Shown here in pieces: positions 22,444 through 36,273 of a stretch of 64,000 nucleotides of DNA. The notes under the pieces are model-generated. The model did no database searches. It saw only the letters and a program-made list of their open reading frames with translations, and had not been told where the DNA came from. The stretch comes from Methylococcus sp. EFPC2. Lineage in GTDB: Bacteria; Pseudomonadota; Gammaproteobacteria; Methylococcales; Methylococcaceae. The stretch lies in contig NZ_CP070491.1 of assembly GCF_016925495.1 (NCBI RefSeq), forward strand, positions 496,001-560,000, given 5' to 3'. Every line of letters starts with the position of its first letter. Within the stretch, counting starts at the first letter, position 1. The position numbers and the translations under genes are program-made.

Positions 22444-22911
22444 TCAGAGTTCTTCGTCGTTTTTGTATTCGGTAAGGGCCTGCTCGACGATCTCGCGGCA
22501 GCGCAGCAGGCGTTCGTATTCCAATTTGTCGATCCGTATCGTCTCGCCGGAGGGCGTTTCTTCCACCGGGCCGGTGAATACCTGTGCCGCTTCGAACAAG
22601 GCCCGCTCCAGCTGGAATATGCGCTCGCTGGCCCGTTCGAGATAGGGCAGCGGATTGGCCTGGATATTGTGTTCGTGCAGGGCGTCCAGGGACAAAAGCT
22701 CCCGGAAGCGCCGAACCGTGTCGCGTTTCTTCTTGCCGAAATCGCGTTCGATGACCGTCATGACGATACTCGCTATAGAGGGATGGTCGAAGCCGCCGGA
22801 ATCCGGCGGCACCCATGCTAGCCCGGGAGGCGGCCCTTCCACCCGGTGGCCGATGTGGGCCATGCGCCTATTTAGCTCGATGATCCGCGATTGTAAATAG
22901 CCGGTGATCAA
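22444..22911 (-). CDS. Unrecognised protein coupled to recB
   Basis: A 155-residue soluble, charged and mainly helical protein. The start is TTG at 22909-22911, overlapping the recB stop in a TTGA arrangement, so translation is probably coupled. A later ATG (AHIGHRVEG) is possible but has no ribosome-binding site. Visible segments are the proline-rich [14 protein letters not shown], a basic helix [18 protein letters not shown], and a long amphipathic C-terminal part ([37 protein letters not shown]). It occupies the place where recD sits in many genomes but shows no helicase motif. I do not recognise the family. Confidence 0.65.
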
Positions 22912-25900
22912 TGCCCGGCGAGGGAGCGATCCAGCGCGTCTATCAAGCCGCGGGGCGGGCGCGTGGCGTAGATGCCGGTGGCTCCCGTGTTGGTGGGGCT
23001 CATGCCGCGCAGGAACAGGTAATACACCCCGCCGTAATGTCGTTCGTAGTCGTAGTCCGCGCCGAGCCGCCAGCCCAGGTAACGATGCAGGGCCACGCTG
23101 TAGAGCAGGTATTGCAGATCATAGCGGTGCGCATTCATGGTCTCGCACAACTCGGGGTCGCTGCGGTAGGCGTCCAGGGTCGAGCCCAGGTGATTCGACT
23201 TGTAGTCGGCCAGGAAATAACGCCCTTCGTGTTCGAAGACCAGGTCGATGTAGCCGTGCATCACGCCGCGCGTGGGCTCGAAGCGCAGGGTAGGTGAGTC
23301 GGGGCGATAGTCGCCCAGACCGTGCAATATCCCCTGCAGCGTTTCGGGCCGCAGCTTCGCCGCGAGGGGATAGTGAAATTCCAGCTCGTTGAGCCGGCGG
23401 TCGTTGGGTAAGTCGCGCAATCTGAGGCCGCAGGGGAGTGGGGTGTCGAGCACTTCGTCCATCCAGCGTACGAGGGGCAGCAGCCAAAGGGCTTCGTCGT
23501 AGGCGTATTTGCGCAGGACACGGCTCGCTTCTTCGCTGTGGGCGTCCGATCCGGTCTGGGTGAAATCGAGCCGTTCCAGCAGTTCGTGCAGCATGCGGCC
23601 GGCCCGTTCGCCGCGCGGAAATCCCCAGCGGTCGGGGCGGCTTTCGACCTCCACCCATTCCGCCGGCTCGGCATCGTAGTCCGCCTCGCTCCGTCCCCGG
23701 GCGGTGAGGGCGCTGTAGCTGGCGATCCGCCAGTCCGTGTCGATGCGCCCCGTGAACGGGCGCGCTTTCAAGCTCTGGGATGCCGTCGCCCTTTTTTCGG
23801 TACGGGCGTGAGCGTCGGTGGGAAGGTCGGCCAGGGCGATGGCGCCCGCGCTGTCGAGCGCGAGTTTTTCCAGGCGCGCGCGGCGCGCCGGTTCGTCGAG
23901 CGCGGCGAAATGAGCCGGCGCTTCGCGCACCGGCTGCTCCATGCCGGGTGTTTGATAAAGCAGATAGGCGAGTGCACCGGTGCGCGCATCGCCGATATCG
24001 CCGAAGACCAGATAGCAGCGGTGCCGGGCGCGGGTGAGGGCGACGTAAAGCAGGCGCAGTTCCTCGGCCAGACGCTCCCGGTCGGCGAGTGCGTGATGGG
24101 CGTCCAAGGCGTCCGAGCCCAGTTCCAGGCAGAGCGCCCGAGTATCCTCCCGGTGAAAGACGAAGGGTGGTTTGCCCGCGTGCGGCCGGCCGTCCCATAG
24201 GCCGGGCAGAAAAACGACCGGGTATTCCAGCCCCTTGCTCTTGTGGACGGTGACGACCTTGACCAGGTTCTCGTCGCTTTCCAGGCGCAATTGCTGACCT
24301 TCGGCCGCGCCGTCGGGCTCGCGGCGGCGGTCGGCCAGCCAGCGCAACAGTCCTTCCATCCCGCGTCCCGATTCGGCCTGCAGCAGTTCGGACAAATGCA
24401 GGAGGTCGGTCAGACGCCGCTCTCCGGCCGTCCCGGCCAAAAGGCGTGAGGGAACCGCGTAATCGGCCAGCCACTCCTGAAACATGGCCATGTAGCCCTG
24501 GCGCAGCCAAAGCCGGTGGTAGCGCTGGAAATCCTCGCGGCGTTTTTCCCATTCGGATTCTTCCCGGGCCAGGCGCTGCAGATCCTGGGCATCCATGCCG
24601 ATCAAGGCTCCGGCCAAGGCGAGCCGCATCAGGCCGGCGTCGAGTGGTTCGGCGACGGCGGCCAGCAGCGTTTGCAGCTCGCGCGCCTCTTCCGTCGCGA
24701 ACACGCTCTCCTGGCTGAGGAATACCGACGCCGTGCCTCGCTGGGTCAGCGCCTGACGCAGGTCGGCCGCCTCGTAGCGGTTGCGCACCAGGATGGCGAT
24801 GTCGCCGGCCCGCAGGGGCCGGTCGCCGATGCGCGTAGCCCCCGTCAGCAGCTCGACGATTTCGCCGGCCACCGCCTGAGCGATCGCAGTCCTGGCCTTG
24901 TCTTTGGAAACGGGGTTTTCCAACTTGCCGCGGGTGGCGTTGTCTTCGGTTTTGTGCAGGTACCACAGACACAGGGGCGCAGGCGACTGTCCGTCCTGAG
25001 TGTACGGTTCCCGGTCGGCCCGGCCCGAGGCTTTGACCGGATGGAAGTCGATTTCTCCGGGAAAGAGAAACGGCGCCGCCGCACCCGCAAAGACCTGGTT
25101 GACGGCCTCGACCAGGCGGGTGGACGAGCGCCAGTTGGTGTCCAGGGTGTAGTGCGAGCCGCCGGGGCCGGTGTCGCGCCGGGCCTGCATATAGGTGTAG
25201 ATGTCACCGCCGCGGAAGCCGTAAATCGCCTGCTTGGGGTCGCCGATCATATACAGGCCGCAGTCCGGCGCGTCGGAATAGATGCGGTTGAACACTGCGT
25301 ATTGCGCGGGATCGGTGTCCTGGAATTCGTCGATCAGCGCGACCGGATAACGCCGACGCAGGGTCTCCGCCATCACGTCGCCGCCGTCACCTTGCAGGGC
25401 GTCCAGCAGGCCGGCGATCAGATCGTCGAAAGCCAGGGCGTTTTGCGCCTGTTTACGCGACTGCAAATCCGCGCGGCACTCGTCGATCGCGTCGGACAAC
25501 AGACGCTGCAGCCGGTGCTCGCACAGCTCGTTCAGGTCCCGGCAGGCGTCGAAAAAGGGATGGCGGGGCGCGACGGCGCCCTTTTTCCGCTTGGCGTCGG
25601 AGACCGCGCCTTCCAGGGTGGCCGGGAAAAACAGCTCGAAATGGGTTTCCGGGCGCGCATAGTCGCAAGGCTCGGCCCCTGCGTACGCGTCCATGGCGGC
25701 GTAGGCCGCTTCCAGCCGGTCCAGGCGGTAGCTCTTCTCCGCTCGGCCGAGGGCTTTGTCCTCGTTCAGCAGGGTCTTGATGGCTGCGGCCTGATCGGAC
25801 CAAATCCGCAACAGGTGGGCGCGCGCCAACTGGTAGGCCTCGGGCGATACCGTTTCGGACGGGATGGCCGGCAGAATTTCGCAAGGCCGCGCCAGGTGCG

Positions 25901-26468
25901 GCCGGATTGCCGTATGCAGGGATGCCGGACCGGAATACGCCGTGCTGACCAGGCGGGCGAGGCCGGCGGCCTGGGCGGGATAAAACGTCCGCCGCCAGAA
26001 ATCTTCCACGACGGCAGGCAGCAACTCGGCCTCGCTTTCGAGGAAGGTCGGGTCGAACGGCGCCCCGCTTTCCACCGCGCTTTCCTGCAACACCCGCTGG
26101 CAGAATCCGTGTATGGTGTAGACCGCCGCCTCGTCCATGCCCAGCAGCGCCGCTTTCAGGCGGGCCCGCACCAACGCCGGGTTCTCGCAACGGGCCAGCA
26201 GTTCGGAAATCGTATCTCCCGCCGGTATTTCCGCCCCGCTTTCCGAGCGGTGCAAGGTCTCCCGCAATACCTCGCGGATGCGCCCGCGCAACTCCCCGGC
26301 CGCCGCCCGAGTGAAGGTGACGACCAGGAGCTCGCGCACGTCCAGGCCGCGTTCGAGCAATAAGCGCAGATACAGACGGGCGATGGCGTAGGTCTTGCCG
26401 GTGCCGGCGCTGGCTTCGATGAGGCTGATGCCGCTCAGCGGCAAGGTCTTGATGTCCAGGGTTTGCAT
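22908..26468 (-). CDS. recB: Exodeoxyribonuclease V beta subunit (RecB)
   Basis: A 1186-residue helicase-nuclease of the RecBCD double-strand break repair enzyme. The N-terminal SF1A helicase has Walker A EASAGTGKTYAIARL (near residue 20), DEFQDTDPAQYAVF as motif II, the ATP-coupling YMIGDPKQAIYGFRGGD, and VVTVHKSKGLEYPVVF. The C-terminal nuclease domain retains its acidic and lysine residues in GYIDLVF and FLADYKSNHLG. The length agrees with the family. It follows recC by 50 bases and overlaps the next gene at its stop. No recD is found on either side. Confidence 0.97.
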   Translation of the reverse strand: MQTLDIKTLPLSGISLIEASAGTGKTYAIARLYLRLLLERGLDVRELLVVTFTRAAAGELRGRIREVLRETLHRSESGAEIPAGDTISELLARCENPALVRARLKAALLGMDEAAVYTIHGFCQRVLQESAVESGAPFDPTFLESEAELLPAVVEDFWRRTFYPAQAAGLARLVSTAYSGPASLHTAIRPHLARPCEILPAIPSETVSPEAYQLARAHLLRIWSDQAAAIKTLLNEDKALGRAEKSYRLDRLEAAYAAMDAYAGAEPCDYARPETHFELFFPATLEGAVSDAKRKKGAVAPRHPFFDACRDLNELCEHRLQRLLSDAIDECRADLQSRKQAQNALAFDDLIAGLLDALQGDGGDVMAETLRRRYPVALIDEFQDTDPAQYAVFNRIYSDAPDCGLYMIGDPKQAIYGFRGGDIYTYMQARRDTGPGGSHYTLDTNWRSSTRLVEAVNQVFAGAAAPFLFPGEIDFHPVKASGRADREPYTQDGQSPAPLCLWYLHKTEDNATRGKLENPVSKDKARTAIAQAVAGEIVELLTGATRIGDRPLRAGDIAILVRNRYEAADLRQALTQRGTASVFLSQESVFATEEARELQTLLAAVAEPLDAGLMRLALAGALIGMDAQDLQRLAREESEWEKRREDFQRYHRLWLRQGYMAMFQEWLADYAVPSRLLAGTAGERRLTDLLHLSELLQAESGRGMEGLLRWLADRRREPDGAAEGQQLRLESDENLVKVVTVHKSKGLEYPVVFLPGLWDGRPHAGKPPFVFHREDTRALCLELGSDALDAHHALADRERLAEELRLLYVALTRARHRCYLVFGDIGDARTGALAYLLYQTPGMEQPVREAPAHFAALDEPARRARLEKLALDSAGAIALADLPTDAHARTEKRATASQSLKARPFTGRIDTDWRIASYSALTARGRSEADYDAEPAEWVEVESRPDRWGFPRGERAGRMLHELLERLDFTQTGSDAHSEEASRVLRKYAYDEALWLLPLVRWMDEVLDTPLPCGLRLRDLPNDRRLNELEFHYPLAAKLRPETLQGILHGLGDYRPDSPTLRFEPTRGVMHGYIDLVFEHEGRYFLADYKSNHLGSTLDAYRSDPELCETMNAHRYDLQYLLYSVALHRYLGWRLGADYDYERHYGGVYYLFLRGMSPTNTGATGIYATRPPRGLIDALDRSLAGH

Positions 26469-26518
26469 GGCTGATCGATGCGGATTGCGACGGGTGTGGC
26501 CGACTAGGGTGACCGGTT

Positions 26519-29500
26519 TCAGGGCGAGGAGGCGCTCAGCAGCGGGTCGTAGACCGTGAGGGCCAGGGTCTTGAACTCCGTCAGCGTAGCGCCGGAAAAC
26601 GGGTCGCGTCCGCGAAAGGCCAGGGCGGTGGCGAGGTTTTCGCCTTCGCCCTGGCGATCGTTATAGGGATCGCCTTCCCATAGCTTATAGGCCGCCGCCA
26701 CAGCCTCTTTCTCCGTCCGCTTCCGGTTGATCGCGTCGGCGTAGGCGTAGGAGGACTGCGGAAAAAACGCCGCCGGCGCATCCAGTCCGCTGCGGTACAG
26801 GCCGAGCAGTTCGACCAGGTGGATGCGGGCCGACTTCGGCTCCAAGGGCGGGAAGGCCAGCAGGGTATCCCGACTGACGAACAGGCTCCGGCACGGCTCG
26901 CGGCCTTCGCAGGCCAGTTGCGCGACCAGGTGTTGCAGCCAGAATTCCAGCCGGTCCTGAGGTCTCAGCCGGCCGACCCGGTAACCGAACAAGCCTGTGG
27001 GGCCGATGCGCATGGCGCGTGCCGAGAAAGTCAGATCGCCTACCCGCAGGGTCACCGGCGGGGTGGACTCGAAAGTCGGCGGCATCAGGGGCCGCAGTCG
27101 TTCGGCGAAATCCCCGGCTTCGGCCTCCAGGCTGCGGTATCCCAGTTCGCCGAACACGCCTTGCGGCAAGTCCCCTCTCGCCTTGTGGAGCCTAAGGGCC
27201 TCCGCTTCGTCGTAGGCGTCGACCAGCCGCTTTGCTACGGACTCCCCGGTCAACGCGTATCGGGTGAGCGGATCCAGCGCGAACGGTTCGCTGGTTTCCA
27301 GCACTTCCGTCTCGTCGTCGTAGCGCAGGTCGAGCCGGTGACGCAGGAAATGCGCGGCCGGGTTGCGGAAAAACCGGATCAGGGATTCCAGATCGATGTC
27401 CAGCAGGGCCGAATCGGGCGGTTCGGCGAGTGCGCCGGAGACGAAAGGCGCATAGGCCGCGCCGCGCTCGGCCCAAAGCGGTGCGTAACTGAACAAGTGT
27501 GGCTCGACGCCGCTGAAATAGCGCGGGCTGAAGGGTTGCAAGGGGTGCTCGACGATGAAGCCCAGCTCCCTGAGCTGGCCGATGCGGTCTTTGCCGTCGG
27601 CCTCGAACGGCAAGTCCAGGCGTTCGGCGATCAGCTCCTGCAATTCGCTGACCAGCACCGATGGCTGCAACTCGCTGTTGTCGCGCTGGCTGCGGCCGGC
27701 GTAGCTGATGTACAGCCGGCTGCGTGCCGAAAGCAGGGCCTCTAGGAACAGATAGCGGTCGTCCTCGCGGCGCGAACGGTCGCCGGGCTGCGGGTCGCGG
27801 GCGATCAGATCGAAGCCGGGGGTGTAGCGCCGGCGGGGATAATCCTGATCGTTCATGCCCAGCAGACAGACGACCTCGAACGGGATGCTGCGCATGGGCA
27901 TGAGCGAGCAGAATGTGATGCGGCCGGTGAGAAAGCCTGTGGCCTGGTGCGGCTCGTCCAGATGGCCTTGCAGGAAGTCGGCGATGACCGCGCGGCCGAT
28001 CTCGCCGGCAAATTCGGCGCTGGCGCTGATCTGGTTCAGCGCGTCCAGTGCGTCGAGCAGGATGGGCAGCGCGGCGTCTTCCTCCTCGCCCGGCCGGAAG
28101 AAGGCCTCGCGCAGCGCGTGCAATTCCTCTATCCACTGCGCGACCGACCGTTTGGCCGCGAGGCGGTGGCGGAATTCCTCCAGACGGTCGATGAACCGGA
28201 CCAGACGCCCCAGCGCTTCCGCCTGCTGTCCCTCCACGTCGGGGTAGGGGGCGATATCCCGGCAGAGCTCGGTTTCCGGTGCAAGGGCGTAACCCATCAG
28301 CATGCGGTCCAGGCCGAAGCGCCAGGTATGCAGATCGTCCGCCGGAATTTTCCAGGCCTGTTTGTCCTTGCCGTCCAGCCCCCAGCGTATGCCGGTTTCC
28401 GCGATCCAGCGGCGCAGGGTTTCCAGGTCGTCGCCGTTCAGTTCGAAGCGCGCGGCCACCGCCGGCGTGGCGAGCAACTCGAACACCGCCGCCGCGTCCA
28501 GCCGGCTTTCGGGCAGTTCGAGCAGGCGCGGAAAGACATCCAGCAGGGTGTGTTCGCGCCGCGCCGCGCGGTCGGCGATGGCACAGGGCAGACGCGGCCC
28601 GGTTCCCCCCTCGCGGCCACCCCGCTCGCGCACCGCGAAGACCGCTTCCACCAGCGGGGCGTAGCGCTCGATCGCCGGCGTCATGACCACGATGTCGCCC
28701 GGCTTCAGTGCGGGATTCGCTTCCAGCAAGGCGAGCAATTGATCGTGCAGCACTTGCACCTCGCGCATGGCCCCGTGGCAGGCGTGAAAGCGGATGCTGT
28801 CGTCGTTCAGGAGTTCGGCCGGCGCGGGTTCGTTTTCCCGCAGATCCAGGATATCGCCCTGGACCAGGCGGAGCAGGCTGTCGTCGCCGGGTTCGACGAA
28901 ATGCTCGCGTTCGTCCAGCTCGCGGTTGGCCGCGTAGATCAGGCGGATGAAGTCGCGGCCCTGCTTGCCCTGGGAGGCCAGCAGGGGATGGCCGATTTCC
29001 TGATGAAGGGCGCGGTCGGGCCGGTGGGCCAGCCAGCGCTCCAGCGTGCGGCGGTCCTCGATGTCGCCCCAGTATTGCCGGCAGGGATTAGGCAGGAAAA
29101 CATGGATGTCGCACACCTCGCCCAGCCATTCCAGGACTTCCAGATAAGCCGGCGGCAGGCTGCTCAGGCCGAACACGCTGAGCCGGGGCGGCAACAGGCC
29201 GGGTTGGGGGGCCAGGTTCGCCAGGCGCTGGAACAGTCTCGCGCGGTGCGGCGCATCGCCGGTCTTTTGCACCAGTGCCCGCCACAGCGGCGCCTGCCAA
29301 TCGCCGCTGTCTTCGCCGGCTTCCCAGGCCAGCAGCAGGGAGCCGCGGTAAAGCTGATACTGGTCGAACACGTCGGCGATCTGCCGGGCCAGGCGATAGC
29401 GGCGCAACTCGTCGCCCGGGTCTGCCAGGTAGTGGCGCAGGGGGGCGAAAGCGGCTTGCGGCAGCAGCTCCGGCAAGCGGTCGTAAATGCGCCAAACCAA

Positions 29501-29761
29501 TACGTCCCGTTGATAGACGTCGGAAGCGCCGCCGATGTGGCGTTCGAATATTTCCCAGATGAAGGCGCCGGGCAGGGGAAACCGCACATGCGCCGCCACG
29601 CCCAGCCGGTCCGCCAGCCGCAGAGCAAGCCAGCGCGCCATGCCTCGGCTCTGGGTGATGACGACCTCGGCCTGCAGGGGCGGGGCCGGCTCTTCGGCCA
29701 GAAGTTGCGCCAGTTCGTCGGCCAGGTTTTCGAGCCGGTTGCCGTGGTGGAGGATGAGCAT
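26519..29761 (-). CDS. recC: Exodeoxyribonuclease V gamma subunit (RecC)
   Basis: The Chi-recognising subunit of RecBCD. The 1080-residue protein begins at ATG 29761 (LILHHGNRLENLADELA), where the family starts; the open frame extends 100 codons further upstream but that part is unlike RecC. Characteristic segments include EVVITQSRGMARWLALRLAD, VFGLSSLPPAYLEVL, FHACHGAMREVQVLHDQLL and ITFCSLMPMRSIPFEVVCLL with GMNDQDYPRR. It is the first gene of recC-recB and is divergent, over a 133-base spacer, from the propeller-KAP gene. Confidence 0.96.
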   Translation of the reverse strand: MLILHHGNRLENLADELAQLLAEEPAPPLQAEVVITQSRGMARWLALRLADRLGVAAHVRFPLPGAFIWEIFERHIGGASDVYQRDVLVWRIYDRLPELLPQAAFAPLRHYLADPGDELRRYRLARQIADVFDQYQLYRGSLLLAWEAGEDSGDWQAPLWRALVQKTGDAPHRARLFQRLANLAPQPGLLPPRLSVFGLSSLPPAYLEVLEWLGEVCDIHVFLPNPCRQYWGDIEDRRTLERWLAHRPDRALHQEIGHPLLASQGKQGRDFIRLIYAANRELDEREHFVEPGDDSLLRLVQGDILDLRENEPAPAELLNDDSIRFHACHGAMREVQVLHDQLLALLEANPALKPGDIVVMTPAIERYAPLVEAVFAVRERGGREGGTGPRLPCAIADRAARREHTLLDVFPRLLELPESRLDAAAVFELLATPAVAARFELNGDDLETLRRWIAETGIRWGLDGKDKQAWKIPADDLHTWRFGLDRMLMGYALAPETELCRDIAPYPDVEGQQAEALGRLVRFIDRLEEFRHRLAAKRSVAQWIEELHALREAFFRPGEEEDAALPILLDALDALNQISASAEFAGEIGRAVIADFLQGHLDEPHQATGFLTGRITFCSLMPMRSIPFEVVCLLGMNDQDYPRRRYTPGFDLIARDPQPGDRSRREDDRYLFLEALLSARSRLYISYAGRSQRDNSELQPSVLVSELQELIAERLDLPFEADGKDRIGQLRELGFIVEHPLQPFSPRYFSGVEPHLFSYAPLWAERGAAYAPFVSGALAEPPDSALLDIDLESLIRFFRNPAAHFLRHRLDLRYDDETEVLETSEPFALDPLTRYALTGESVAKRLVDAYDEAEALRLHKARGDLPQGVFGELGYRSLEAEAGDFAERLRPLMPPTFESTPPVTLRVGDLTFSARAMRIGPTGLFGYRVGRLRPQDRLEFWLQHLVAQLACEGREPCRSLFVSRDTLLAFPPLEPKSARIHLVELLGLYRSGLDAPAAFFPQSSYAYADAINRKRTEKEAVAAAYKLWEGDPYNDRQGEGENLATALAFRGRDPFSGATLTEFKTLALTVYDPLLSASSP

Positions 29762-29894
29762 GTGCGGATGCGCGATGGATGCGTGAAATCCGGCCCATGG
29801 TAGCACCGCGAGCGAGCGGCCATGGATAAGGAGAAGCCTTAGAGACGGTGCGCGTGCAAGCGGTGTATCGTCGAGTTGCCTGAAGGAGCGGCCG

Positions 29895-32800
29895 ATGAAC
29901 CCGCACGAAACAAAGCAAAAAATAGCAGCACACCCTAGCCCCAAGACTAAGCCGGCGCGCCGTGCGTATCGGCCAGGCTGGTTATGGTTCTCCCTCGCGC
30001 TGTTGCTGACGCTCAGCGCCGGCGCCGTCTTGCAGCCGCCCCACCCCGACCCCTGGCGCACGACGCAGGGATGGCACCTGACCAGCCTCGACGGATGGCG
30101 CTACCCCGTCGAATACAACGCCTTTAAACGGCTGCCCGTGATACACGGGGCTTTGAATAGCGTCCATGCCCGCCCGAACGGGCGCGAGGTATGGGCGGTG
30201 GGCGAGGGCAGCTTGATCGTTCATTCGTCCGATGGCGGCGCTCACTGGGAACAGCAGTATCCGCCCGTAGCGGTGCAGCCGACCCAAGCATCCGCCCCTT
30301 GGCTGGACTGGCTGGCCCGTCCCGTGTTGGCTGCGGAACTCGCGAATAACGCGCCGAATCCGGCTTATCCGGACTCGAAGGCGGAACGCGTGTTGCGCAA
30401 GCCTTCGACCGATCAGGCATTGCAAGACCGAAAAGCGTCCCTCGCAAAGAAAGCGGCCATAGAGCGCTCGGTGCCAGCCAAGCCGGATACCACGGTTAAG
30501 GCACCGGAGCAGCCGGCCACCGACCCGGAAAAATCCCAAATCGGGACGACGGAAAAAGAGACTTCGGCAAAAACGGTAGAGGATCAGCCGAAGAGCGTGA
30601 CACCGCCTCAAACGCCGCAACGGGTCACACTGAACGGCATTTACTTTGCCGATGACACCCACGGCTGGGCGGTGGGGGACAGCGGCACCATCCTGGCGAC
30701 CCGCGACGGTGGCGCGCACTGGACACCGCAGAAAACTGAGACTCCAGCGGGTTTCGCATCGGTCTACTTCGTCACGGAGAATCAGGGCTGGGTCGTCGGG
30801 GCAGCGGGCGTGATCTTCTCGACTACGGACGGCGGCGAAAAGTGGACCAAGCAAGTCAGCACCACTCAAAGCGGGCTTCGCTCGGTCTTCTTTTCCAGCG
30901 GAGGGCAAAAGGGCTGGGCTGTAGGTGAGGGGGGCACGATACTCGCCACTATCGATGGCGGTAAGAACTGGGGGCAAAAAGACAGTGATATTCGGTGGGA
31001 GCTTCGCGCCATCCAATTTCTCAACGACACTCATGGATGGGCGGTAGGGGCGGGCGGCGTTATTCTCGTAACCAGCAATGGTGGCGAAAGTTGGGAACTG
31101 CAGTCCAACGACAGCCAGGTGGCTCTCACCTCCGTTCATTTCATCGACGAGCAGCATGGTTGGGCCGTAGGCTGGAGCGGCAGAATTTTGGCGACCGAGG
31201 ACGGTGGGAAGACCTGGAACGCAAGGAACACCGGTACCGAGAACTGGTACGAGTCTGTCCATTTCGCCGATCTGCGGCACGGATGGTTAGTCGGAACCGA
31301 CGGCACCATACTCGCTACCACGGATGGCGGACTAACCTGGACATTGCAAAGCACAGGCAGCGAGAGCGACTTGCAGTCAGTGTACTTTTCCGGTCTCGGA
31401 CACGGCTGGGCTTTGGGGACAAAAGGGACAAATTTTGCGGCCTCCGATGAAGGCGCACGGTGGACTCCCCAGTCCCGAGTCAAGGAATCCGAACTCACTA
31501 CGGACGTCATGTCCGTGATGTTTGTCGACGCTCAACGCGGCTGGGCTGTCGGTAAAGGCGCCGACATATTCCATACGATAGACGGGGGACGTAGTTGGGG
31601 GGAACAAACGGTCGAACACGACCCTCCCGAGATAAGGGATTTCCATGCAGTCGCCTTTGCCGACCCAGATCGCGGTTGGCTGGTCGGCAAAAGCGGGGTC
31701 ATTTACGCAACCCCGGATGGAGGGCGGAGATGGCAGCCGCAAAAGAGTACTGTCCGGGTAGATCTGATGTCCGTGCATTTCGTAGACGGAAAACTCGGCT
31801 GGGCGGTGGGAGATGAAGGGAACATACTCGCAACTGCGGATGGCGGCGCAAACTGGAAGCCGCAGACGAGCGGCACTACAGCGTTACTTCGTTCCGTTTA
31901 TTTCGTCGATGATCGACACGGTTGGACGGTGGGAGATGACGGGAAAATCATTGCCACGATCAACGGTGGCGCGAATTGGAAGCCGCAGACGAGCACGGTT
32001 CAAACCCATCTTCGGGCGGTCCGCTTCGTCGACGTACAACACGGTTGGGCCGTGGGGGACAACGGAGTCATAGTCGTCACGGCGAACGGGGGCGCGGATT
32101 GGAAACCGCAGCCGAGCCGCACTCAGGCAAATCTTCGTTCGGTCTATTTTGTCGATGCCCGACATGGCTGTGCCGTTGGGGACGGTCATACCATACTATT
32201 GACCCGCGACGGCGGCAGTACCTGGAGCGATATCGAATACCAGCGCTTACCCGCTCCCTGGTATTACCTGGGACTGGCGGTCTGTCTGCTCGCATTTGTG
32301 CGTGGGTTCGCTCCGCCGGCTCCCGTCAGTCTGCCGGGTCGAACAAAACCTAACGCGGCTAACGACGAAAACCACGGCGCAGCCGGCATTTTCGTGTCGG
32401 ACCAGCCCTGGAAACCGGGCGATCCGGATCATCTGGGACACGGGGCTCTCGCCGTCGGTTTGAGCCGCTTCTTGCGCAACGAGAATACCGAGCCCGGATT
32501 GACGCTGGCGATCACGGGGTCCTGGGGTTCCGGCAAGAGCTCCATCATGAAGCGCCTGCAGCACGACCTGGAACATGCGCATTTCCGTCCCGCCTGGTTC
32601 AACGCCTGGCATCACCAGCAGGAAGGCCGGCAACTGGCCTCGATGTTCAGCGCGATGCGCCGGCAGGCCATCCGTGCCTGGTACACGCCGGCCGGTTTTT
32701 GGCTGCGCATACGGCTGCTTTGGGCCCGCGGCTGGGGCTATCGGATGATCCTGGGCCTGACGCTCGCCGTTCTGGTCGTCGGGGTAGGCGATGCGGCCGG

Positions 32801-34532
32801 GCACGAGGATATGCTGAAGGCGCATTGGCGCAGCTATGTACTGAAAGAACCGCAAACCGTGTTGACCCAGACCAGCCTGGAAAAGCTGAAAAAGGACGGC
32901 GCATTGAACGAGGCGGACCTCACGCTGCTCAAGCAGCGCGCCGTTTGGCAGGTGCCGGCCGGGCAGGGCGGCTGCACGGCCAAGTCGGCCGATCGGAACG
33001 CCACCGCTTGCGTGTTCGAGTCGCCGGGCCATCTGCTGGAGAGCCTGGAAAAATCCCTGCTGAAACGTTCCCTGTCGCAAGAGGAGCAAACGGCGGTACT
33101 GGCCGCGGCCCATCATTTGCCGCCGGCAGAATTGTTTCCGCATCTCACGGTGATCGTCGCGCTGCTGGGCCCGTTGTTGGCCTTGTTGATGGGCAAAGGC
33201 CTGGCCGTGTATGGCCTGGACTTGCTGCCCTGGGTGCGCCGTTTCCTGACCGACGGCGGGGCCGAGGCGCCGAAGGCCGCGGTCGGCACGCTGGAGCACT
33301 ATCGGCGCGAGTTCGAACTGCTGACCCATGCGCTGAAGGGCCGGCTGGTGCTGTTCATCGACGACCTGGACCGGTGTACCCCGGAAACCGTGCGCGAAGT
33401 GCTGGAACTGGTGAACTATTTGGTCAGCGCCGGGCAGTGCTTCATCGTGCTCGGCATGGCCATGGAGCACGTCGAGGCCTGCATCGAACCCAAGGACAAG
33501 ACGCAGAACCAGGACGAATACGCCAAGCAATATCTGAAAAAGCTCATCAACATCGAGGCGCCGGTTCCCCTGGCCACGGCGGAGGGGATCGGCAAGTTGC
33601 TGGAAGGTTTCCGTGCCCGTGCATCCAAGGGCGCGGAAAAGAAGCCGGGCCATACGGCGGTCCTCGCCTGGCTGCGGCGGCGGGGAGCGAACGAATCGGT
33701 CATGAATCTTGCGGCTGCGCTGTCGCAGCGGGCTCGTTCCGCCATGAACATCGCATGGTCCCGGGTTTCGCAGGGCTTGGGCTTCGTTCTGCCCGCTACG
33801 CCGCCGCTGGCCTTATGCGCCGTGCTGGCCTGGGGCTTGTTGATACGCGAGGCGCCCAAGCCGCTCGAATTCGCCGAGCCGGTGGTCGCGCAGGCGTCGG
33901 TGAGCGCGGCGGATAGGGGAAATTCCGGCGATACCGCAACAGCCCAGGCGCCGGAAAGGAAAGACAGCGGCCCGGTCGGCGTCATGGCGGCGCAGACGTA
34001 TGATCCGGCCAAGGCCTTGAGGCTACCTCTGGGCTTCGTCGGCTTGGTCGCGCTCTCGTCGTTCTGGCTGTACGGCTACCGCAAGGAGTTGTTCGATCTG
34101 CCGGAGCGCACGGTGGATTCGGACGAATTCGTTACCACCCTGGACGCCTGGCGCGACATCATCCGCCTGGGCGACCCCACGCCGCGCGGGGTGAAGCGTT
34201 TCGTCAACCGGGCCAGGCTTTTTTCCATGCAGGTGGAGGCGATGCGGATGCCGGACGACGAAGTCATGCGCGAGTCGGTGCTGGTCGGTTTGGCGGCTTT
34301 GCATCATTTGAATGAAGGACTGGTGGAACACACGGCCGGCTTTTCTATGCGGAGCATGGATGATGACGCGCGCCGGAGCCTGGAAGAAAAGCTGGGCAAG
34401 CCGTGGAAGGAGATCGGTGAATTGATCGAAAGCGTGACGGTCAAACTGTCGGACGGACACGGCGGCTGGGCGCCGACCGAGGCCGAATGCCGGGCTTTTC
34501 TCTCCCTGGCCAGGGGTGTTTACATACGCTAG
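29895..34532 (+). CDS. Ycf48-like beta-propeller fused to a membrane KAP P-loop NTPase
   Basis: A 1545-residue protein with, in order: a short basic N-terminus; a membrane helix at about 28-46; one propeller motif near 97; a Pro/Lys/Glu-rich linker; 13 more motifs from about 256 to 780, of the form HGWAVGDSGTILATRDGGAHW, seen here in parts as GWAVG and DGG-x-x-W; a second membrane helix near 786-806; and a KAP-type NTPase. Walker A is TGSWGSGKSS (about 874-883) and Walker B LVLFIDDLDRC (about 1151-1161). Two hydrophobic segments (about 949-965 and 1080-1110) lie between them, a KAP hallmark, and two more follow (about 1294-1316 and 1377-1396). Fourteen repeats suit two seven-bladed propellers. 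The simplest topology places the propellers in the periplasm and the NTPase inside. GAAGGAG precedes ATG 29895. The architecture is known to me only as separate parts; the function is unknown. Confidence 0.85.
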   Translation: MNPHETKQKIAAHPSPKTKPARRAYRPGWLWFSLALLLTLSAGAVLQPPHPDPWRTTQGWHLTSLDGWRYPVEYNAFKRLPVIHGALNSVHARPNGREVWAVGEGSLIVHSSDGGAHWEQQYPPVAVQPTQASAPWLDWLARPVLAAELANNAPNPAYPDSKAERVLRKPSTDQALQDRKASLAKKAAIERSVPAKPDTTVKAPEQPATDPEKSQIGTTEKETSAKTVEDQPKSVTPPQTPQRVTLNGIYFADDTHGWAVGDSGTILATRDGGAHWTPQKTETPAGFASVYFVTENQGWVVGAAGVIFSTTDGGEKWTKQVSTTQSGLRSVFFSSGGQKGWAVGEGGTILATIDGGKNWGQKDSDIRWELRAIQFLNDTHGWAVGAGGVILVTSNGGESWELQSNDSQVALTSVHFIDEQHGWAVGWSGRILATEDGGKTWNARNTGTENWYESVHFADLRHGWLVGTDGTILATTDGGLTWTLQSTGSESDLQSVYFSGLGHGWALGTKGTNFAASDEGARWTPQSRVKESELTTDVMSVMFVDAQRGWAVGKGADIFHTIDGGRSWGEQTVEHDPPEIRDFHAVAFADPDRGWLVGKSGVIYATPDGGRRWQPQKSTVRVDLMSVHFVDGKLGWAVGDEGNILATADGGANWKPQTSGTTALLRSVYFVDDRHGWTVGDDGKIIATINGGANWKPQTSTVQTHLRAVRFVDVQHGWAVGDNGVIVVTANGGADWKPQPSRTQANLRSVYFVDARHGCAVGDGHTILLTRDGGSTWSDIEYQRLPAPWYYLGLAVCLLAFVRGFAPPAPVSLPGRTKPNAANDENHGAAGIFVSDQPWKPGDPDHLGHGALAVGLSRFLRNENTEPGLTLAITGSWGSGKSSIMKRLQHDLEHAHFRPAWFNAWHHQQEGRQLASMFSAMRRQAIRAWYTPAGFWLRIRLLWARGWGYRMILGLTLAVLVVGVGDAAGHEDMLKAHWRSYVLKEPQTVLTQTSLEKLKKDGALNEADLTLLKQRAVWQVPAGQGGCTAKSADRNATACVFESPGHLLESLEKSLLKRSLSQEEQTAVLAAAHHLPPAELFPHLTVIVALLGPLLALLMGKGLAVYGLDLLPWVRRFLTDGGAEAPKAAVGTLEHYRREFELLTHALKGRLVLFIDDLDRCTPETVREVLELVNYLVSAGQCFIVLGMAMEHVEACIEPKDKTQNQDEYAKQYLKKLINIEAPVPLATAEGIGKLLEGFRARASKGAEKKPGHTAVLAWLRRRGANESVMNLAAALSQRARSAMNIAWSRVSQGLGFVLPATPPLALCAVLAWGLLIREAPKPLEFAEPVVAQASVSAADRGNSGDTATAQAPERKDSGPVGVMAAQTYDPAKALRLPLGFVGLVALSSFWLYGYRKELFDLPERTVDSDEFVTTLDAWRDIIRLGDPTPRGVKRFVNRARLFSMQVEAMRMPDDEVMRESVLVGLAALHHLNEGLVEHTAGFSMRSMDDDARRSLEEKLGKPWKEIGELIESVTVKLSDGHGGWAPTEAECRAFLSLARGVYIR

Positions 34533-34626: not shown

Positions 34627-36273
34627 ATGAGCCCCGCTGAATCGGACACGATAGGTCGGTATCTCCTCCAGCGTCTGTACGAAGAGGGTGTGCGAGACAT
34701 CTTCGGCGTACCGGGCGATTACGTGCTCGGCTTCTACGATCTGATGGCCAACAGCCCCATCCGCCACATAGGCACCACGCGCGAGGACACCGCCGCGTTC
34801 GCCGCGGACGGCTACGCGCGCTGCCGCGGCCTGGGGGCGCTGGCGGTCACTTACGGCGTGGGCGCCCTGAATACGGTCAACGCCGTGGCCGGCGCTTATG
34901 CCGAATCCGCGCCAGTGGTGGTCATCAGCGGCGCGCCGGGTGTGCGCGAGCAGCGGGAAGACCCCCTGTTGCACCACCGTTTCGGTCCGTTCAATTTTCA
35001 GCGCGAGATTTTCGAACGCATCACTTGCGCCACGGCGGTGCTCGACGATCCGCTGATGGCTTTGCGCCAGATCGATCGGGTGCTCGTGGCGGCGCGCCGG
35101 CAGTGCAAGCCGGTTTATATCGAAATACCGCGCGACCGGGTGGCAACGCCGGGCTATCCCGTGCCGGCGGAAGCGTTCGAGGAAGAGCCGGCCAGCGATG
35201 CCGCGGCCTTGGCCGAAGCGGTCGCCGAAACCGTGGAATTGATGGGCCAGGCGGTCTCGCCCATGCTAGTCGCCGGCGTTGAACTGCACCGGCGCGGCCT
35301 GCAGGATGCCCTGATCGAACTGGTGGAACGGGCGCATCTGCCGGTCGCCGCCACCCTCACCGGCAAATCGGTCATCGCCGAGCGTCACCCCGCCTATCTG
35401 GGCATCTACGAAGGCGCGATGAGCGCGGAAGGCGCGCGCTACACGGTGGAGCAATCCGATCTGCTGCTCATGCTGGGCGTCACCCTGAACGACGTGGACA
35501 CCGGCATCTACACCGCGCGGCTGGATCCGCGGCGCATCGTCCGCGCCTCGCAGGACGAAGTCGTCATCCATCACCACCGCTATCCGCGCGTCGCCCTGGC
35601 GGACTTTGTCCTCAGCCTGGCGCAATCGGCAGGCGCGCGCGCCGACGCCTACCCGGCCGCCCCGGCCGTGCCCGAGTTCGGCTTTCCCGAGCCGAATCGG
35701 CCCATGGCCGTGGAGCGCCTGATCGCCCGCCTGGATCGCGCGCTGACGCCGGAGATGATCGTGGTGTGCGACGTCGGCGACTGCCTGTTTGCCGCCCTCG
35801 ATCTGCGGGTGCACGAACGCAGCGAATTCCTCGCCTCGGCCTTCTACACCTCCATGGGCTACGCGGTGCCCGCCGCGCTCGGCGCGCAGATCGCCCGGCC
35901 CGATCACCGGGCGCTGATCCTGGTGGGGGACGGCGCGTTCCAGATGACCGGCACGGAGCTTTCCACCCACGCGCGTTACGGTCTGGCGCCCATCGTGGTG
36001 GTGTTCAACAACCGCGGCTATAGCACGGAGCGCTTCATCCTCGAAGGTCCGTTCAACGACATCGCGTCCTGGAACTTCGACCGTCTGGGCGAAGTGTTCG
36101 GTCCCCTGCGGGGCTACGACGCGCCCGACGAACAGTCCTTCGAAATCGCGCTGCTCGGCGCGCTGGCCGAGCACACCCAGCCCAGCATCATCAACGTCCA
36201 CCTGCCGCAGACCGACGCCTCGGCGGCCATGCAGCGCCTGGCCGCACACCTGCATTCCCGGGTTCAGGGATAG
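34627..36273 (+). CDS. Thiamine-diphosphate 2-keto acid decarboxylase (pyruvate/indolepyruvate decarboxylase type)
   Basis: A 548-residue cytoplasmic enzyme expected to decarboxylate a 2-keto acid to an aldehyde. The N-terminal domain has IFGVPGDYVLGFYDL and the catalytic glutamate region GTTREDTAAFAADGYAR. The twin histidines that separate decarboxylases from acetolactate synthases are present in DPLLHHRFG. The thiamine/magnesium motif runs from GDGAFQMTGTELS to FNNRGYSTERF. Pyruvate, phenylpyruvate and indolepyruvate are all possible substrates; the sequence alone does not choose. AGGAG precedes the ATG. It lies 94 bases after the KAP gene with no clear terminator between, but a functional link is not evident. 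Confidence 0.9.
   Translation: MSPAESDTIGRYLLQRLYEEGVRDIFGVPGDYVLGFYDLMANSPIRHIGTTREDTAAFAADGYARCRGLGALAVTYGVGALNTVNAVAGAYAESAPVVVISGAPGVREQREDPLLHHRFGPFNFQREIFERITCATAVLDDPLMALRQIDRVLVAARRQCKPVYIEIPRDRVATPGYPVPAEAFEEEPASDAAALAEAVAETVELMGQAVSPMLVAGVELHRRGLQDALIELVERAHLPVAATLTGKSVIAERHPAYLGIYEGAMSAEGARYTVEQSDLLLMLGVTLNDVDTGIYTARLDPRRIVRASQDEVVIHHHRYPRVALADFVLSLAQSAGARADAYPAAPAVPEFGFPEPNRPMAVERLIARLDRALTPEMIVVCDVGDCLFAALDLRVHERSEFLASAFYTSMGYAVPAALGAQIARPDHRALILVGDGAFQMTGTELSTHARYGLAPIVVVFNNRGYSTERFILEGPFNDIASWNFDRLGEVFGPLRGYDAPDEQSFEIALLGALAEHTQPSIINVHLPQTDASAAMQRLAAHLHSRVQG

Follow-up and report, generated by a model that had tools for sequence, protein, structure and literature searches.

The locus described here raises the question of which function is served by a single gene that encodes both Ycf48-like propeller blades and a membrane NTPase of the KAP family. 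It lies in the window, a stretch of 64,000 nucleotides from Methylococcus sp. EFPC2 (contig NZ_CP070491.1, positions 496,001 to 560,000 of the forward strand), to which coordinates refer unless another contig is named. As originally read, the gene is one unbroken frame of 1545 codons that unites the blade repeats with the P-loop NTPase (Table 1); this was confirmed by the translated frame, which starts with ATG, and by Pfam. In a genome-wide domain search, KAP matched nowhere else in the host genome, and every PSII_BNR match fell within this gene. An assembly chimera or a frameshift join was ruled out, as the junction is shared by 18 genomes of this order, by one of another order and by a phage contig. 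The protein is real and conserved, and its architecture is undescribed in the literature that could be searched, where no description of a double propeller fused to KAP was found; the original prediction had likewise known of no system joining the two. With a probability of roughly one half, we favor its interpretation as a receptor-switch that spans the envelope and is encoded by a single gene; its most likely role would be anti-phage defense or superinfection exclusion. A more specific version is offered tentatively: the protein may be an inner-membrane-spanning pattern-recognition receptor, carried by bacteria and phages, whose exchangeable periplasmic double propeller senses phage attack and fires a cytoplasmic KAP AAA+ switch, and which has a paralogous family where the KAP output gives way to another propeller array followed by a SHOCT tail.

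Table 1. Features of the propeller-KAP gene, with positions in the window and residues (aa) of the encoded protein.
Feature	Position	Strand	Basis
Shine-Dalgarno-like AAGGAG	29883..29888	+	Read in sequence; 6 nt upstream of ATG
Double propeller-KAP NTPase gene, 1545 aa	29895..34532	+	Sequence, ORF translation, Pfam
Predicted TM1 (aa 28-46), uncleaved-anchor-like, K/R-rich N-terminus ahead	29976..30032	+	Hydropathy; model helix 27-45
Blade 1 (aa 85-121)	30147..30257	+	Repeat positions and model; probably closes the second (membrane-proximal) propeller
Charged low-confidence linker (aa 122-242)	30258..30620	+	pLDDT under 50; alignment
Blades 2-8 (aa 243-529), closed seven-bladed propeller	30621..31481	+	Structural alignment to 7bie, Ycf48 match
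Blades 9-14 (aa 530-785), six blades of the second propeller	31482..32249	+	Repeat positions, model
YQRLPAPWYYL motif and predicted TM2 (aa 782-811), ectodomain exchange junction in relatives	32238..32327	+	Sequence, hydropathy, comparison
KAP_NTPase domain (aa 856-1266)	32460..33692	+	Pfam PF07693; top structural match of the model is RdrA
Walker A TGSWGSGKSS (aa 874-883)	32514..32543	+	Sequence; W, G, G, K, S invariant in 18-row alignment
Predicted TM3 (aa 951-969), inside NTPase domain	32745..32801	+	Hydropathy
Predicted TM4 region (aa 1080-1111), inside NTPase domain	33132..33227	+	Hydropathy
Walker B LVLFIDDLDRC (aa 1151-1161)	33345..33377	+	Sequence; DDLDRC invariant in 18-row alignment
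Predicted TM5 (aa 1299-1317)	33789..33845	+	Hydropathy
Predicted TM6 (aa 1374-1392)	34014..34070	+	Hydropathy

The outer half contains the 14 DGGxxW repeats that had been counted originally, with blade centres at aa 113, 271, 312, 354, 395, 436, 477, 518, 563, 608, 649, 690, 731 and 772, and it passes the curated cut-off of the Pfam family PSII_BNR (PF14870; E=9.2e-76, 255.4 bits against 27). The first repeat is indeed set apart by a charged linker (about aa 122-242), which was found in several relatives and is missing from others in the alignment. The propeller and KAP parts were modelled as separate structures, and the propeller model (pLDDT 75.1) yielded the expected fold. Its residues 243-529 align with 7bie, a designed seven-bladed propeller (Z 33.8, rmsd 2.1 A, 279 aligned), and the propeller model matches the tandem seven-bladed GH74 structure 2cn2 with a TM of 0.51 by query. 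These models suggest that blades 2-8 form one closed propeller and that the other blades presumably form a second one of seven. Because the model already closes blades 2-8, the propeller of blades 9-14 most likely takes blade 1 as its seventh; both membrane helices would then exit the same membrane-proximal propeller, with blades 2-8 positioned away from the membrane. The two propellers proposed earlier are thus supported, whereas a division into blades 1-7 and 8-14 was rejected because blades 2-8 close on themselves. A similar tandem layout occurs in the highly repetitive propeller structure 2ymu and in the GH74 xyloglucanases, although these are not membrane proteins and have no KAP domain. 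GH74 enzymes are glycosidases.

The blades are of the type found in Ycf48 / HCF136, the photosystem II assembly factor, which likewise forms a closed seven-bladed propeller. The sequence match to Ycf48 covers aa 239-512 (E about 1e-23), and the propeller model matches Ycf48 5ojp_B with a TM of 0.78 by target length. However, the Ycf48 equivalog NF010237 scored 269.4, summed over 8 stretches, and did not reach its cut-off of 326; moreover, the host protein differs from Ycf48 / HCF136 in having two propellers, membrane anchors at both ends and a fused NTPase. This likeness is the first point in favor of the main rival explanation, an envelope assembly or quality-control ATPase. By analogy with Ycf48 and photosystem II, its propellers would hold partly assembled components of some membrane or periplasmic complex, which the KAP domain would place or remove at the expense of ATP. 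The host offers a second point: it has two PmoA/AmoA-family gene copies (434 bits each) and is therefore probably a methanotroph. We consider this explanation unlikely in view of the distribution data given below.

With respect to topology, the propellers had been placed outside and the NTPase inside, and this arrangement is supported by hydropathy and the positive-inside rule, which predict a periplasmic propeller and a cytoplasmic KAP NTPase. The N-terminal stretch before TM1 consists of 26% K+R. Hydrophobic segments between Walker A and Walker B, also noted at the outset, correspond to the two hydropathy peaks of TM3 and the TM4 region, and two further hydrophobic regions follow Walker B. 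An even number of segments after TM1 would bring both Walker regions, and also the C-terminus, back to the cytoplasm. The TM3-TM4 loop bears repeated Cys residues in members with a long insert, which fits a periplasmic location of this loop but does not prove it.

The NTPase half is a member of the KAP family and shows each family feature that was tested. The Pfam family KAP_NTPase (PF07693) matched well above its cut-off (E 1.8e-28, 100.1 bits against 20), and both Walker motifs recognized in the original prediction are intact. The KAP fold is also supported by the model of this half, which has a moderate pLDDT of 64.8 and gave RdrA of RADAR as its top structural match (Z 16.9, rmsd 3.6, 229 aligned). 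RdrA chains fill the top seven rows of the structural list at Z 14.5-16.9 with the next unrelated rows at about 13; such lists are compatible with other folds as well, and plain Foldseek returned no match to the KAP model at E <= 0.001. According to the structure entry titles, RdrA was solved as a ring with its partner RdrB, whereas the host NTPase is a membrane protein. No RdrB deaminase adjoins the host gene in the window, where Pfam identified the adjacent genes as recC and a TPP enzyme.

By sequence, the nearest named profiles to the NTPase half are PifA and QatA, from which the host gene differs by its large ectodomain and by having no QatBCD partners. The QatA profile (NF041923) scored 77.3 against an equivalog cut-off of 600, and the operon genes QatB, QatC and QatD are absent from the neighborhood, where recC and the TPP decarboxylase are found and no partner is conserved in relatives. 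Judged by these profile scores, the protein belongs neither to QatA nor to Ycf48 proper. A further relevant system is the anti-phage protein Tmn (PMC11846954), which by its description resembles the host protein in being a single KAP NTPase of the membrane, with two membrane-spanning segments. The PADLOC and NCBIfam scans gave no profile named Tmn. To our knowledge, no periplasmic propeller is present in Tmn. Altogether, the nearest KAP proteins with known roles are anti-phage proteins (PifA, QatA and RdrA by sequence or fold, Tmn by description), which favors the defense reading.

A profile restricted to the junction (last blade, PAPWY, TM and Walker A) was used to find relatives, as the original prediction had suggested for propeller-KAP proteins, and a family emerged. 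Full-length or near-full-length matches were found in 18 of the 311 genomes of the order, mostly in ORFs of 1200-1600 aa, and the loci behind them contain blades and KAP on reading. One genome of another order encodes a 1392-aa fusion that shares the long linker after blade 1. The phylum-wide search of 398 genomes revealed no further full junction, and 72,556 plasmids yielded no relative beyond short KAP matches. A scan of genome contigs with propeller patterns alone gave no fusion among the matches listed (at least 57 loci), and fusions may still occur in other phyla. In three fusion genes (L120, L113 and L125), a break separates the KAP core from the C-terminal part, which suggests decay or assembly error. 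Another locus, L127, has about four blades compared to about fourteen in its close relative L128, reflecting either natural loss or a repeat collapse during assembly.

The gene neighbors of these relatives were tabulated, and no neighbor gene was conserved across genera, on which basis an operon or multi-gene system was rejected. In the window, the neighbors are recC, the TPP decarboxylase and housekeeping genes (Pfam), and no defense island is evident around the gene. Within the genus g25 the gene occurs in 9 of 37 genomes, and three related genomes have empty sites with contiguous flanks that are 87-90% identical; the alignment at the empty site is too poor to show insertion scars. Based on these comparisons, the propeller-KAP gene is an accessory one-gene presence/absence unit. 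Such a patchy distribution, with the fusion in just 18 of 311 genomes and clean empty sites within a genus, does not fit an assembly ATPase well. Participation in building the methane-oxidising membrane complex (pMMO) is disfavored in particular, since the fusion is missing from most genomes of the order and occurs at full length in two draft genomes (G668 and G019) without an AMO/pMMO hit. The link to Ycf48 made originally stands at the level of the fold only.

The same design was also found once in a phage. Two IMG/VR contigs encode the same 1308-aa homologue, with the architecture of the host gene: 13 detected blades and one degenerate blade (counted by eye) are followed by KAP. As the two contigs are identical across the 6.5 kb compared, they were counted as one phage lineage; no relative was detected among 50,697 phage records. 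The phage copy (L181:6985-10911 in IMGVR_UViG_3300014489_000164) is located inside the structural module, flanked by tail-module genes and directly before the tape-measure gene, on a contig that also carries head protease, scaffold, major head, Hc1 (head-closure) and minor tail genes. A precedent for prophage-expressed exclusion of other phages is SieA of P22 (PMC10883804). Given that other bacteria and one phage lineage share this design, the gene probably encodes a receptor that acts on its own in conflicts of bacteria with phages or of phages with each other. Phage carriage is a further point that assembly or quality control would leave unexplained, together with the patchy presence and the fusions in genomes without a pMMO hit.

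At one syntenic locus, the two halves of the protein differ in their histories. Between L117 and L119 at this locus, the ectodomains share 58% aa identity with a pS of 0.71, compared to 83% and 0.49 in the KAP half and mostly 0.25-0.49 in the flanking genes. Between L117 and L121 the ectodomain is the more similar part (pS 0.11), with 0.335 in the KAP half and 0.21-0.36 in the flanks. The break in history falls at about aa 780-840, which is the junction, and recombinational exchange of the outer half would be its simplest cause. At the level of single blades, only 1 of 12 best matches between L123 and L124 occurs at the same position, although blade number stays near 14, and positional identity fades over longer distances. 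Positive selection on the ectodomain is not seen and not claimed, since its dN/dS of 0.16-0.27 is purifying. Trees of the KAP and ectodomain halves have long branches and few well-supported forks and were used as background only.

Taken together, the empty sites, the ectodomain exchange and the phage-borne copy independently support a conflict role, which the original prediction had no more than mentioned; all three also speak against an assembly factor. An exchangeable ectodomain with patchy presence would also fit conflict between bacteria, in which the propeller would recognize a rival's toxin, effector or cell-wall lesion as a competition or envelope-damage sensor, the KAP domain would trigger the response, and phages would be mere carriers. 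A weak match to the Pfam family Tli3 (T6SS immunity), obtained on blades of both L009 and the phage homologue, would agree with this explanation but probably reflects shared repeat character. No neighbor genes co-travel across genera, and the position of the phage copy amid structural genes favors phage conflict; we regard inter-bacterial competition as rather improbable.

Paralogues in the genus g12 (L010-L016 and L019) show that the outer part can be combined differently. They have the same anchor, 13-14 detected blades and the PAPWY TM, with several copies per genome, but where KAP would follow, they carry another large blade array (about 13-14 blades detected), with a SHOCT match in three of the four scanned. 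On this comparison the outer part is a module that occurs joined to at least two different inner halves, and the ectodomain can work without the NTPase. These paralogues would suit a surface scaffold or adhesion platform, whose large repeat ectodomain holds partners while KAP organizes the inner membrane face. Intact Walker motifs in all aligned KAP members nevertheless speak for nucleotide use, and we view a scaffold as very unlikely.

For the favored receptor-switch, a mechanism can be proposed, in which the propeller would sense a target and control the NTPase, as the original prediction had it. The exchangeable propeller would bind something that varies between phages or envelopes, such as a component of the phage tail, a protein ejected by the phage or damage to the envelope during DNA entry, and binding would be relayed via the pair of membrane helices that exit the membrane-proximal propeller. 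ATP-bound KAP domains might then assemble into an RdrA-like ring, and the segments inserted in the NTPase would act on the membrane so that genome entry is blocked or the cell is shut down. Several points count against a defense role, namely the QatA score far below its cut-off, the lack of an evident defense island, the purifying selection on the ectodomain, the single phage lineage and the moderate confidence of the KAP model, for which plain Foldseek gave no match. Among the bacterial immune sensors that have been characterized, most recognize components of the phage inside the cytoplasm. If the receptor reading is true, this protein would represent an outward-facing immune arm, with a recombinationally exchanged ectodomain across the membrane from a defense-type NTPase. 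Its sensing and acting halves could be swapped or mutated separately, which would make the mechanism of membrane KAP proteins such as Tmn and PifA testable, and the g12 paralogues with their different inner half would provide a natural set of output modules.

Some additional features of the locus were noted. Promoter and terminator scans found no promoter-like site for the propeller-KAP gene. In its propeller region, GC drops to 0.58 (window 31000-31999) compared to ~0.65 around. The TPP-dependent decarboxylase (34627-36273) is on the same strand and begins 95 bp past the gene; its best NCBIfam score is for the indolepyruvate/phenylpyruvate type and lies below the cut-off. The recB and recC genes are side by side at 22908-30061, and the sole strong recD match is ~2 Mb away from them (G000:C1:2480710-2482485). 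At a relative's locus, a by-eye reading of sequence starts pointed to apparent serine-cycle genes.
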